Source: Modestobacter sp.
GTDB lineage: Bacteria; Actinomycetota; Actinomycetes; Mycobacteriales; Geodermatophilaceae
DNA length: 37,686 bases
Reading direction: 5' to 3'
Assembly (NCBI GenBank): GCA_025965635.1
Contig: JAOPWO010000302.1
Span: 1-37,686, forward strand
Shown here: positions 23,624-31,520 of the stretch, piece after piece
How the letters are laid out: each line of letters opens with the position of its first letter
Numbering within the stretch: the stretch's first letter is position 1
Position numbers and translations under genes: made by a program
Notes under the pieces: generated by a model
The model's input: only the letters and a program-made list of their open reading frames with translations
Databases searched by the model: none
What the model was told of the DNA's origin: nothing

Positions 23624-24202
23624 CTACTTGGTGTCGTCCTCGACGAGGCGAGCGACGAGCTCGTCGACCGTGCCGGTCTTGAGCAGGTTGCGCTTGCCGG
23701 CCTCATCGGCGAGCTCGACCTTGGTGAGGCCCTCGTAGCGCGCGCGAGCGTCGTCCTGAGCCTTCTTGCGCTCGACCCGCTCGGCCTTGGCGGCCTCCGC
23801 GCGCGCCTCGCGCTCGGCCTTCTCCGCCTGGTCGGCCTGGTCGGCAACCGTCTGCTCGAGGTTGTCGACGCCCGTGCGGGCAGCGTCAGCCAGACCCTGG
23901 GCCTGGTCACGCACGACGGTGGTGACCGACTCGATCTGCTGGCGGGTGACGCCGGTCAGCGTGTTCGCGACCTCGGCGAGCTTGCGGGCGTAGTCGTGGT
24001 TCAGGTCGACGACCTGCTTGATGAAGGAGAACTGGCGCTCCACGACCTCGGTGGCGTCCAGCTGCGGGACGGCGGGGACGGTGGGGAGGGCGCGGAACTG
24101 GTCGGTGACCGAGTTCAGGCTGTTCTTCCACGTGTCGAGCGTGCTGGTGAAGGCGTTCTCGACGCGGCGGGCGGTCTCGGCGTGATCGGTCGTCGAAGTC
24201 AT
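23624..24202 (-). CDS. Phasin-like protein with a lysine/alanine-rich linker and SAP-like C-terminal domain
   Basis: VENAFTSTLDTWKNSLNSVTDQFRALPTVPAVPQLDATEVVERQFSFIKQVVDLNHDYARKLAEVANTL (amphipathic phasin-like), then QADQAEKAEREARAEAAKAERVERKKAQDDARARYEGLTKVELADEAGKRNLLKTGTVDELVARLVEDDTK. Confidence 0.8.
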   Translation of the reverse strand: MTSTTDHAETARRVENAFTSTLDTWKNSLNSVTDQFRALPTVPAVPQLDATEVVERQFSFIKQVVDLNHDYARKLAEVANTLTGVTRQQIESVTTVVRDQAQGLADAARTGVDNLEQTVADQADQAEKAEREARAEAAKAERVERKKAQDDARARYEGLTKVELADEAGKRNLLKTGTVDELVARLVEDDTK

Positions 24203-24208
24203 GCGTTA

Positions 24209-24238
24209 ACTATCCCAAGCACTTGCTTTGTATGTCAA
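24209..24238 (-). promoter_or_regulatory. Phasin promoter: TTGACA - 18 bp - GATAGT, with AAGCA-N2-TGCTT palindrome in the spacer
   Basis: Minus strand reads TTGACATACAAAGCAAGTGCTTGGGATAGTTAACGCATG; the -10-like box ends 6 nt before the phasin ATG. Confidence 0.6.
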
Positions 24239-25162: not shown

Positions 25163-26287
25163 CTACGCGGAGCGCGGGGCGGCCGTCCCGAGGAAGAACC
25201 GGAGCATCTCGGCGGATGCATCCGGTCCCATGGGGTCGGTGCAGGACCCGGCCGCACTCCCGCCGAACCAGGCATGACCGCCCCCGTGGACGGTCCACGA
25301 CTCAGCCAGGACGGCGCCGGCGACGTCGGTGTGCACCACCCGGGTGCAGGGACGGCCTCCCCGGCGCGTCACCAGGGTCGCGTCCGCCACCGGGCTCGGA
25401 GCCGAGACCAGCCGGGCAGCCACCAGCTTCTCCGCGTTGACCGGCGCCACGGTGGCATCCCGGTCACCGTGGAACACGATCAACGGGACACGGCCGGCCG
25501 GGCCCGGCGAGCCCCCGGTGCGCATGGCGGCAAGGGCAGAGATCGGGTCGTGCGCCGCACCGTAGGCGATTCCGCTGTGGACGCCGACGCCGGCGAACAG
25601 TTCCGGGTACGTCGCCGCCATCACCGCGGCCATCGCGCCACCGGCGGACAGCCCGGCGACGTACACGCGGGAGCTGTCGACGGCGTGCTCGGTCATGACC
25701 CGGTGGACGATGGCGGCGATGATCGAGGGCTCACCCGAGCCGGCCACCTGGTCGGCCCGGGAGAACCAGTTCCAGAAGCGACCACTGTTGGCGGCCGCGG
25801 ACTGCTCGGGATAGGCGACGAGGAAGACGTGCTCCTCGGCGTGTTCGTTCATCCGGGTCCCCGCGGCGCAGTCCGCCGCGTCCTGCTCGCCCCCGTGCAG
25901 CATGACGACCAGGGGGACCGGTGCGCCCGTGTACCCGGTGGGGATGTACAGCTCGTAGCTGCGGGTGCCGGCCGGCACCCGGTGGCTCAGACGGCGGATC
26001 TCCCCTCCGGATGGGGCCGTCTCGACCACACCCGGACGTGACCCCACCGTGCGCGTGGGCCCACCGGTCCGCGGGCGGCCGGACATCGCCGCCACCGCGG
26101 CGGAGCCGACATCTGGGGACGGTCCGCTGGGGCGTCGGGGGCCGGACGGGGAAGCCCCGGACGACCGGACGCCGGAAGGAGCGCCGAGCGTGCGCTGGAT
26201 GGTCTCCACCGCCTCGGTCGGGCGCCCGGCGCGGGTGAGCCGCAGGACTTCGGACATGCGGGATCTGCGGTCGCCGTCCATGGTCAC
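25163..26287 (-). CDS. PHB depolymerase-family extracellular-type esterase
   Basis: [95 protein letters not shown]...MLRFFLG. Alternative start at 26257. Confidence 0.88.
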
Positions 26288-26920: not shown

Positions 26921-27769
26921 ATGACTCAACTGGATGCCCAGGCCACCGAGGAGGGCGCCGTCGCGGAGGCCGCCCGGGACAGCGTCGGCGACAAGCTGCG
27001 TGGCCGGGTCGCCTTCGTCACCGGCGGCACGAGGGGCATCGGCGCCGCCATCTGCCGCAGCCTGGCCACGCAGGGGGCCACGGTGGCTGCTGGATACAGC
27101 GGCAACGACGAGGCCGCAGCCAGCTTCCGGGACAGCTTCCACCAGGAGTTCCCCGGCGGGGGGTTCAGCGTCCACAAGGGGGACATCAGCTCCGGCGACG
27201 ACTGCCGGCGCACCGTGCAAGAGGTCATCGAAGAGCACGGCACGCTGGACATCCTGGTCAACAACGCCGGCATCACCGTCGATCGGGGCGTGCTGAAGAT
27301 GACCGACCAGGACTGGCAGCGGGTCATCGAGGTGAACCTGTCGGGCGCGTTCTACCTGTCCCAGGCGGCGCTGCGGCACATGCTCGACCGCGGCAGCGGC
27401 CGGATCATCAACATCTCGTCGGTCATCGGCGAGACGGGCAACATCGGGCAGACCAACTACGCCGCCGCCAAGTCGGGACTGTTCGGCCTCACCAAGACCC
27501 TCGCCCGCGAAGCCGCCTTCCAGCTGCAGAGAGCCGGCAAGCTCGACGGCCTCGGTGTCACCGTCAACACGGTGACCCCCGGGTTCATCGCCACCGAGAT
27601 GGTCTCGACCATGCCGGAGAAGGTGCTCGACTCCATCCGCGCCCGCATTCCGCTCGCCCGCCTGGGCGAGCCGGAGGAGATCGCCCGCGTCGTGCACTTC
27701 CTCGCCGCAGACGCCTCCGGCTACATCACCGGACAGGTCTGGGGCGTCAACGGAGGCCTGGACATGTAG
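26921..27769 (+). CDS. phaB: SDR-family acetoacetyl-CoA reductase (PhaB-like)
   Basis: GRVAFVTGGTRGIGAAICRSLATQGATVAAGYSGN, DILVNNAGIT, ISSVIGETGNIGQTNYAAAKSGLFGLTKTLARE, GYITGQVWGVNGGLDM. Confidence 0.85.
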   Translation: MTQLDAQATEEGAVAEAARDSVGDKLRGRVAFVTGGTRGIGAAICRSLATQGATVAAGYSGNDEAAASFRDSFHQEFPGGGFSVHKGDISSGDDCRRTVQEVIEEHGTLDILVNNAGITVDRGVLKMTDQDWQRVIEVNLSGAFYLSQAALRHMLDRGSGRIINISSVIGETGNIGQTNYAAAKSGLFGLTKTLAREAAFQLQRAGKLDGLGVTVNTVTPGFIATEMVSTMPEKVLDSIRARIPLARLGEPEEIARVVHFLAADASGYITGQVWGVNGGLDM

Positions 27770-27872: not shown

Positions 27873-29051
27873 GTGCCGGTTCCCAGCCCGAGACCGACGA
27901 TGACGCCGGCCTCGATCCTGGCCAGGCAGACGACAGCCAACACCGCTGCCAGTCTCGCCGAGATCGCCCAGGCCGCACAGCGGATGTGGTCGAGTGGTGC
28001 CGCCGGCCCCCTGGCGCCACTGCACCTGGCTGCCCGGAGCGCCCGTTGGTGGACGGCCATGGTCGACCGGAAGGTGCCCGAGTGGCACCTGCCGCACCGC
28101 ACGGTCCTCAGCACACCGTTCGCCCACGTGCACGACTTCTCCCCCGCCGACGCCCTTCCGGGTGTCGTGCCGACACTGGTACTGCCGCCGCAGGCCGGTC
28201 ACTCGTCCCACGTCGTCGACTTCGCCCCCGGACAGAGCCAGCTGACCGCGATCCTCGACGCCGGGCTCACCCAGCTGTACGCGATGGAGTGGCGGCCGGC
28301 AACGGCGCAGACGCGCGGGGTGACCATCACCGACTACCTGGAGGTCATCGACCGGGCGATCCTGCACGCCGGCGGACGGGCGAACCTGGTCGGCGACTGC
28401 CAGGGCGGGTGGCTGGCCGCCATCTATGCCGCGCTGCACCCCGAACGCGTGCACACCCTCACGCTCGCTGGGGCCCCGATCGACTTCCACGGCGGCGAGT
28501 CGGTCATCGCCGCGTCGACCCACCTGTTGACCTCGGCGCTGGGCATGGCGCCGTACCGCACCCTCGTCGCCCTGAACGGCGGGAACATGTCGGGCCGGGC
28601 CGTGCTCAGCAACTTCATCCTCATGCAGCCGCAGTCCGAGGTCGGCCGGCATCTGCAGCTGTTCGAGAACCTCGACGACCCCCAGCACGTCGAGCGTTAC
28701 CGGGTCTTCGAGGACTGGTTCAAGTACACCCAGGACATCCCGGGCGCCTTCTACCTCTGGCTGGTGGAGCACCTCTTCCAGCGCAACGAGTTGATCGACG
28801 GACGGCTCGTGGTCGGCGGGCGCCGGGCCGACCTGGCGAGGATCACCTGCCCGCTGCTGCTGCTGGCCGGGGCGAAGGACCACATCACGCCCCCGGCGCA
28901 GCTGTTCGCCGCTGCCCGTGCGGTCGGTACCCCGCCCGCCGGCATCGTGCAGCGCACGTCGTCGGCCGGGCACCTCGGCCTCTTCACCGGCCGCCAGGCC
29001 CTGACCGAGGACTGGCCCGTCCTCATGGCCGAGGTCCGGCGGTGCAGCTGA
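27873..29051 (+). CDS. PhaC-like alpha/beta-fold protein (short, Cys-nucleophile motif GDCQGG)
   Basis: GRANLVGDCQGGWLAAIYAALHPERVHTLTLAGAPIDFHGG; GxCxGG lipase-like box of PHA synthases; VFEDWFKYTQDIPGAFYLWLVEHLFQRNELIDG; GTG start with GAGGAGG RBS. Confidence 0.75.
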   Translation: MPVPSPRPTMTPASILARQTTANTAASLAEIAQAAQRMWSSGAAGPLAPLHLAARSARWWTAMVDRKVPEWHLPHRTVLSTPFAHVHDFSPADALPGVVPTLVLPPQAGHSSHVVDFAPGQSQLTAILDAGLTQLYAMEWRPATAQTRGVTITDYLEVIDRAILHAGGRANLVGDCQGGWLAAIYAALHPERVHTLTLAGAPIDFHGGESVIAASTHLLTSALGMAPYRTLVALNGGNMSGRAVLSNFILMQPQSEVGRHLQLFENLDDPQHVERYRVFEDWFKYTQDIPGAFYLWLVEHLFQRNELIDGRLVVGGRRADLARITCPLLLLAGAKDHITPPAQLFAAARAVGTPPAGIVQRTSSAGHLGLFTGRQALTEDWPVLMAEVRRCS

Positions 29052-29656: not shown

Positions 29657-31402
29657 TCAGGTCCGGACGTACGTGCCCGGGCCCTGCCCCAGGACCGGAT
29701 GTCGATCACTGCCGAGGGTCGGCGGGTCGACGAGGGGTCCGGAGTTCTCGTCCGACCAGCGCGTCCAGTCCTCCCACCACGACCCGCTGCACCGCTCGGC
29801 GGCCGCCGACCAGGCGGACGCCGTGATCGGCAGCGCCTCATCGGTGGGCAGCACCTGGTACCAGGCCTTGGGCCCCGGCGGGTTCACGATGCCGGCGATG
29901 TGGCCACCGCTGCTGAGGACGAAGCGGACGGGTCCGCTCACCAACCCCGTCGTCTTGTACGACGCCTGCCAGGGCACGATGTGGTCGTTGATCGCGCTCA
30001 CCACGTACGTCGGGGCCTTGATCGCCGACAGGTCGATCCTTCGTCCCGCGATCTGCAGATCGCCTGTCGCCAGCTTGTTCTCCACGTAGAAGTTGCGCAG
30101 GTAGAAGGCGTGCATCTCCGCCGGCATCCTCGTGCTGTCGGCGTTCCACGCGAGGATGTCGAAGACCGGCGGCTCCTCGCCCAGCAGCCAGTTGGCGACG
30201 ACGTAGTTGAAGATGAGGTCGTTGGCCCGCAGCACGTCGAACGTGCCCGCCATCGAGGCGCCGTCCAGCACGCCGGAGCGGCGCATCTTGCGCTCGAGGC
30301 GCTCGACGGTCCGCAGGTCGGTGAACGCCTTGAGCGGCCCGGGATCGGCGTAGTCCAGCATGGTGTTCAGCAGGGTGAGTGTGCCGATCCGCTGGTCGCC
30401 GGACTGCCGCAGGTACGCGTCGGTGATCGCCGTGAGTGCGCCGCCCAGGCAGAGCCCGACGATGTCGATCGCCTCCGCGCCGGTGATCTCCGCGATCACG
30501 TCGAGGGCGGCCTGCGGACCGTGGACCAGGTAGTCGTCCATGGTCGTGCCGGCCATCTCCGCGGACGCGTTCTTGTAACTGATCGCGAAGACGGTGCGGC
30601 CGTGCTGGACGGCCCACTCGATGAAGCTCCGCTGCGGCGCGAGGTCCATCACGTAGTACTTGTTGATCCACGGTGGGCTGCACAGCAGCGGGTGGGCGCG
30701 GACCTGTTCGGACTGCGGCTCGTACTGCAGCAACTCCATCAGGTCGTTGCGATAGACGACCTTGGCCGGCGTGGCGGCGAGGTTGCGGCCGATCTCGAAA
30801 GACCGCGTGTCGACCTGCCTCGGGCGCCCGCCGTTGGTCAGCACGTCGTCGACGAGGTGACGGGCGCCTCGCGCGAGGCTCACCCCCCCGGTGTCGAACG
30901 CGCGCTTGAGCGCCGCCGGGTTCGTGGCCAGGAAATTGGTCGGCGCGAGCGAGTCGAGCAGGAGCTCGGTGGCGATGGACGCCTTGCGCGCGGTGTCCGG
31001 GTCGAGCGCGGCGGAGTCGACCACCCCGCGGGCGAAGCGGCAGGCGGCCGCATAGCCGAGGCGCGTGCCGTAGAAGAACGGATTGGTGCTCCACGCCGGG
31101 TCGGCGAACCGCCGGTCCTTCGGGTCCAGCGGGACCGGTGGCTCGATCGGCCGCCCCAACCACTGCGCCGCAGCCGCCAGCGGCACCCGTGCGAGGTCGG
31201 CGGACAGCTGCACGGCCGCCGACGCGGACTGCAGGGGTCGAGCGGCGGACGCGCGCACGACCTGGACCAACGCCTCACCGAGCCCGGCTGCGTCGAGGTG
31301 CTCGAACAGATCGGACTCCGGCGCCAGCGTGCTCGCCGCCCGCTCACCGACCTCCCCCCGCGCTGCCGACGGGTCCTGCGCTGCCGACGGGTCCTGGACC
31401 AT
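29657..31402 (-). CDS. phaC: Polyhydroxyalkanoate synthase (class I-like)
   Basis: WSTNPFFYGTRLGY, PLLCSPPWINKYYVMDLAPQRSFIEWAVQHGRTVFAISYKNAS, DIVGLCLGGALTAITDAYL (GxCxGG), NDHIVPWQASYKTTGLVSGPVRFVLSSGGHIAGIVNPP. Confidence 0.95.
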   Translation of the reverse strand: MVQDPSAAQDPSAARGEVGERAASTLAPESDLFEHLDAAGLGEALVQVVRASAARPLQSASAAVQLSADLARVPLAAAAQWLGRPIEPPVPLDPKDRRFADPAWSTNPFFYGTRLGYAAACRFARGVVDSAALDPDTARKASIATELLLDSLAPTNFLATNPAALKRAFDTGGVSLARGARHLVDDVLTNGGRPRQVDTRSFEIGRNLAATPAKVVYRNDLMELLQYEPQSEQVRAHPLLCSPPWINKYYVMDLAPQRSFIEWAVQHGRTVFAISYKNASAEMAGTTMDDYLVHGPQAALDVIAEITGAEAIDIVGLCLGGALTAITDAYLRQSGDQRIGTLTLLNTMLDYADPGPLKAFTDLRTVERLERKMRRSGVLDGASMAGTFDVLRANDLIFNYVVANWLLGEEPPVFDILAWNADSTRMPAEMHAFYLRNFYVENKLATGDLQIAGRRIDLSAIKAPTYVVSAINDHIVPWQASYKTTGLVSGPVRFVLSSGGHIAGIVNPPGPKAWYQVLPTDEALPITASAWSAAAERCSGSWWEDWTRWSDENSGPLVDPPTLGSDRHPVLGQGPGTYVRT

Positions 31403-31520
31403 GCGCCCATGGTGGCCTGCCCGGCAGCCGTGCGCACCCCTTGCCGGCACACCGACCTGGACGGCTGCCACGACCGTGCACCGACCGCCGCCAGCCCGAT
31501 GGCCCGCACCGGGCCACCGG

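Follow-up and report, generated by a model that had tools for sequence, protein, structure and literature searches.

Can a phasin hold a polyhydroxyalkanoate (PHA) granule on the nucleoid by means of a SAP domain? The question is raised by a gene in a 37,686-nucleotide stretch of Modestobacter sp. DNA (contig JAOPWO010000302.1; the whole stretch is called the window here), whose product joins a phasin-like N-terminus and a charged linker to a SAP-like C-terminal tail. The known phasin-type route to keeping granules on the nucleoid is non-specific DNA binding by the C-terminus, as in PhaM, PhaF, and PhaH (PMC13052382). By analogy with these proteins, the likeliest role of the SAP tail is that of a nucleic-acid tether, and we assign a probability of roughly one half to the reading that it links granule and nucleoid through weak nucleic-acid contacts. 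Features of the locus are summarized in Table 1.

Table 1. The SAP-tailed phasin gene and PHA-related genes in the window. Positions count from the first letter of the window; residues are those of the phasin.
Feature	Positions	Strand	Basis
SAP-tailed phasin ORF, 192 aa, ATG at 24202	23624..24202	-	ORF and full-length relatives
Phasin_2 domain (PF09361), residues 11-82	23957..24172	-	Pfam, 27.8 bits, curated cut-off 24.9
Charged A/K/E linker, residues 83-154	23741..23956	-	AlphaFold2 model
SAP domain, residues 155-190: helix, extended loop R171-NLLKTGTV-179, helix	23633..23740	-	Pfam, profiles, AlphaFold2, Foldseek
Likely promoter: TTGACA 24238-24233, 18 bases, GATAGT 24214-24209	24209..24238	-	By eye
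PHB-depolymerase-type esterase	25163..26287	-	NF050058, 294 bits, cut-off 150
PhaB-like SDR acetoacetyl-CoA reductase	26921..27769	+	TIGR01829, 294.1 bits, just under cut-off 302.1
PhaC/PhaZ-like alpha/beta hydrolase, GDCQGG box	27873..29051	+	Profile matches
PHA synthase PhaC	29657..31471	-	PhaC_N, 197 bits

A phasin in a PHA gene neighborhood

The open reading frame proposed in a sequence-only reading of this DNA exists; its strand, which that reading had left out, is the minus strand. The phasin-like N-terminus proposed with it is supported by the Phasin_2 match, which exceeds the curated cut-off, and by the PHA gene set of the window, where the SAP-phasin gene is accompanied by phaC and by genes resembling phaB and PHB depolymerases. 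The TIGR01841 phasin model of NCBIfam scored 15.3 bits against the 192-residue protein, under its cut-off of 30.2. The N-terminal part is a phasin domain, and from its family and gene neighbors we infer that it coats granules. In two other genomes of the same family (loci L066 and L067), the neighbors of the SAP-phasin gene are phaC, a phaB-like SDR gene, and a short gene for an HTH protein. The PhaC/PhaZ-like hydrolase of the window matches DUF3141 and PHB_depo_C, with scores far below the PHA synthase cut-offs.

AlphaFold2 gave a low-confidence model for the phasin body and placed the linker within one long helix (residues 87–156), for which confidence is low at the start and 81–89 in the last part.

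The mRNA of the window gene is probably leaderless, since only 6 bases separate the putative -10 element GATAGT from the ATG. The pattern TTGACAT...TGCTTGG[GC]ATAGTTA looks conserved in the upstream regions of the window gene (24203–24238, minus strand) and of its orthologues L003 and L005; in these two, unlike in the window, the leader is about 40 bases long. A palindrome upstream of the phasin, AAGCANNTGCTT, was considered and dropped; it has one exact copy in the window and none upstream of the orthologues.

The C-terminal tail is a SAP domain

By sequence profile and predicted structure, the last ~36 residues of the protein form a SAP domain, as the sequence-only reading had proposed. Residues 155–190 match the Pfam SAP model (PF02037) with a score of 17.6 bits (E = 0.0029), which falls short of the curated cut-off (23.9); the relatives L091, L010, and L081 score above it, and eight of nine family members have a SAP match (best 4.9e-8). 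A hidden Markov model built from the tails of relatives, with the window left out, scored the window tail at 55.9 bits, vs. 7.9 for the best of 2000 shuffled tails. Searched against the PDB, a profile of 11 tails (A2) found the yeast Tho1 SAP at 8.5e-6, then MKL1 and SF3B2.

Structure prediction, the check suggested in that reading, pointed the same way. The AlphaFold2 model of the tail is a helix, an extended loop, and a second helix (pLDDT 81–93), and its top Foldseek matches were to the Tho1 SAP (PDB 4uzw and 1h1j; 1.0 Å over 37 residues, 51% identity, probability 0.99–1.00). The SAPs of 3′hExo, DEK, Hcc-1, SDE2, PIAS1, and Ku70 were also listed. Foldseek E-values were poor, none being below 0.18, which the small size of the domain would lead one to expect. 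Neither Pfam nor Foldseek gave a helix-hairpin-helix match in the tail; sequence and fold both indicate SAP. In the window's genome, which is 68% complete, the phasin tail is the only SAP at E-values up to 0.1.

Distribution and conservation

The closest named relative is a full-length protein, 72% identical, from a Blastococcus metagenome-assembled genome, which was also the single relative found in a contig scan; a search of plasmids with the SAP-phasin protein gave no match. Beyond the window's genome, phasins or phasin-like proteins with a SAP tail were found in no fewer than nine genomes, which belong to two actinobacterial families: the window's own (f1; G086, G038, G052) and a second (f4; G144, G174, G186, G616, G161, and, more weakly, G604). 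Their distribution is patchy. Within the window's genus, PhaC was found in 15 of 23 genomes, and the only phasin match besides that of the window (in G020) is without a SAP.

Where present, the tail is better conserved than the rest of the protein: among nine SAP-phasins, mean identity was 63.5% for tails and 32.8% for bodies, with the tail higher in 36 of 36 pairs, which are not independent. Tail architecture varies. One protein (L010) carries three tandem SAPs and another (L091) a histone-H1-like lysine/alanine/proline stretch plus a SAP; the phasin variants L005, L011, and L017 have no SAP. Three phasin-like proteins of the window's family have only H1-like AKKA/PAKK tails (L033 in G086, L034 in G062, and L035 in G039). 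The idea that SAP and H1-like tails neatly replace each other did not hold up, as G086 encodes an H1-tailed phasin-like protein alongside its SAP phasin. Two phasin-like proteins from genome G226 of a further family (f34), L099 and L122, end in two Rho_N modules (Pfam 52.9 bits for the L122 protein).

The tail might be a mere structural cap, or an element governing solubility or degradation, with no ligand. Its loss from the L005 orthologue, which is 56% identical to the window protein, would agree with this, but the tail is strongly conserved even between divergent paralogues, is present as three tandem copies in one protein, and recurs on gas-vesicle proteins, which makes such a role very unlikely.

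Tail charge and loop residues

The sequence-only reading had offered a SAP tail as an alternative to the tails of known granule tethers. The literature searched, where no SAP tether came up, is consistent with this; two precedents had been missed, PhaH with its folded DNA-binding tail and MLDS. PhaH of Caulobacter crescentus is a phasin whose DNA-binding tail is of helix-hairpin-helix type and for which DNA binding and granule positioning have been reported (PMC13052382; Salinas et al., 2023). It shares with the window protein a granule-binding N-terminus followed by a folded, helical C-terminal domain of nucleic-acid-binding type, but here, in another phylum, that domain is a putatively DNA-binding SAP. 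PhaF of Pseudomonas putida and PhaM of Ralstonia eutropha likewise pair a phasin or phasin-like part with a C-terminal extension; theirs are histone-like tails that bind DNA non-specifically, whereas the present one is an acidic folded SAP. MLDS of Rhodococcus jostii, also an actinobacterial inclusion-coat protein with a C-terminus of DNA-binding type, tethers lipid droplets rather than PHA granules to DNA, through a lysine-rich PAKKA tail and not a SAP; changing the tail lysines to glutamate abolishes DNA binding (PMC5504291).

The tails of PhaF and MLDS are lysine-rich, unlike the acidic SAP tail. The window protein has no lysine-rich histone-like tail and no AAKP/PAKKA repeats; its tail has a pI of 4.40 and a net charge of -2 to -3, according to the ends chosen, and the whole protein a pI of 4.96. 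Tails are acidic in nearly all members (pI 4.2–4.6; the exception, L019, is at 6.4), as are whole SAP-phasins (pI 4.5–5.4). The Tho1 SAP, a domain of a eukaryotic mRNP protein, is close in fold and sequence but less acidic (pI 8.38). The acidity of the phasin tail speaks against strong DNA binding.

Some basic residues are nevertheless kept. In the aligned phasin tails R171 and R185 are retained, G177 is invariant, and a single tail lacks K or R at position 175, two before that glycine. Two residues after it, phasin tails have valine (once methionine) and gas-vesicle modules lysine; the loop-end lysine of RAD18-type SAPs is a valine in the window tail. The SAP of SDE2, which has a hydrophobic residue at this place, binds ssDNA with micromolar affinity, and its loop residues C415, G417, and T418 are those most shifted by ssDNA (PMC9399289), so a valine is compatible with nucleic-acid binding.

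Tether, protein contact, or RNA

The tail could instead be a protein-interaction module that plays no part in DNA binding and recruits PhaC, the regulator, or further proteins of the granule. Helix-extended-helix domains of LEM type can mediate protein interaction, and the acidity of the tail, its highly conserved surface, and the co-occurrence of a separate H1-tailed phasin-like protein in G086 would all fit. With an H1-tailed protein already in that genome, the SAP may have another job. We nonetheless consider this role rather doubtful, given that the closest matches in sequence and structure are nucleic-acid-binding SAPs and that L091 has an H1-like stretch and related proteins have Rho_N tails.

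Binding to RNA instead of DNA, be it mRNA, ribosomes, or transcripts close to the granule, is unlikely. Rho_N is an RNA-binding type of module, and the structural matches include the 3′hExo SAP as found in stem-loop RNA complexes, but no RNA-specific feature was seen in the tail and the Tho1 SAP binds DNA, not dsRNA (PMC4909252).

For a tether, then, speak the Phasin_2 score, the PHA gene context, a predicted fold nearest to the DNA-binding Tho1 SAP, the conservation of the tail and its basic residues, the tandem SAPs of L010, the H1-like stretch of L091, and the paired Rho_N modules on phasins of another family; against it stand the acidity of tail and protein, the MLDS charge mutants, the valine in place of the RAD18-type lysine, the tail-less L005, and the two kinds of tail in G086. 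Were the SAP tail a tether, the phasin domain would coat the PHA granule, and the long, partly helical linker would hold the SAP domain out from it. Each granule would carry many SAP tails, which would bind nucleic acid weakly and non-specifically, with nucleoid DNA the likeliest partner, and hold by avidity; contact would run through loop residues R171, K175, G177, and T178. The granule would stay on the nucleoid and so be shared out at division.

SAP modules on gas-vesicle proteins

When the phylum was searched with the tail profile, gas-vesicle clusters of other actinobacterial families came up. In two of these (L061:6049–9537 and L062:6183–9257, plus strand), GvpO and a GvpA/J-like protein carry a fused SAP, with Pfam scores well above cut-off, and proteins of 577–604 residues carry two or three SAPs each. 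The same small module is added to proteins of cytoplasmic inclusions, though the inclusion is an unrelated one and the loop reads S-G-[SNT]-K rather than the K-[TS]-G-[TN]-V of phasin tails.

In Pseudomonas, PhaF and AlgP carry the same DNA-binding tail on two inclusions (PMC13052382). By analogy with these H1-like tails, on PHA granules and polyphosphate respectively, one SAP module may be an interchangeable actinobacterial adaptor that attaches unrelated inclusions to the nucleoid, PHA granules in one case and gas vesicles (via GvpO, the GvpA/J-like protein, and the multi-SAP protein) in the other; we propose this only tentatively.

Phasins, SAP domains, and tethered granules have all been described before, and PhaH already provides a phasin whose tail is folded and of DNA-binding type. 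For the combination of phasin and SAP, and for a module shared with gas-vesicle proteins, we found no earlier description: the literature searched, which lay mostly outside subscription journals, held no relevant pairing of phasin or polyhydroxyalkanoate with a SAP domain, and none of gas vesicles with one.

Granule positioning is understood in a few proteobacteria only. The SAP-phasins of actinobacteria offer a compact, mutable module for probing how inclusions are tethered to the nucleoid, and the presence of the SAP on gas-vesicle proteins as well suggests a general strategy, not the quirk of one granule.
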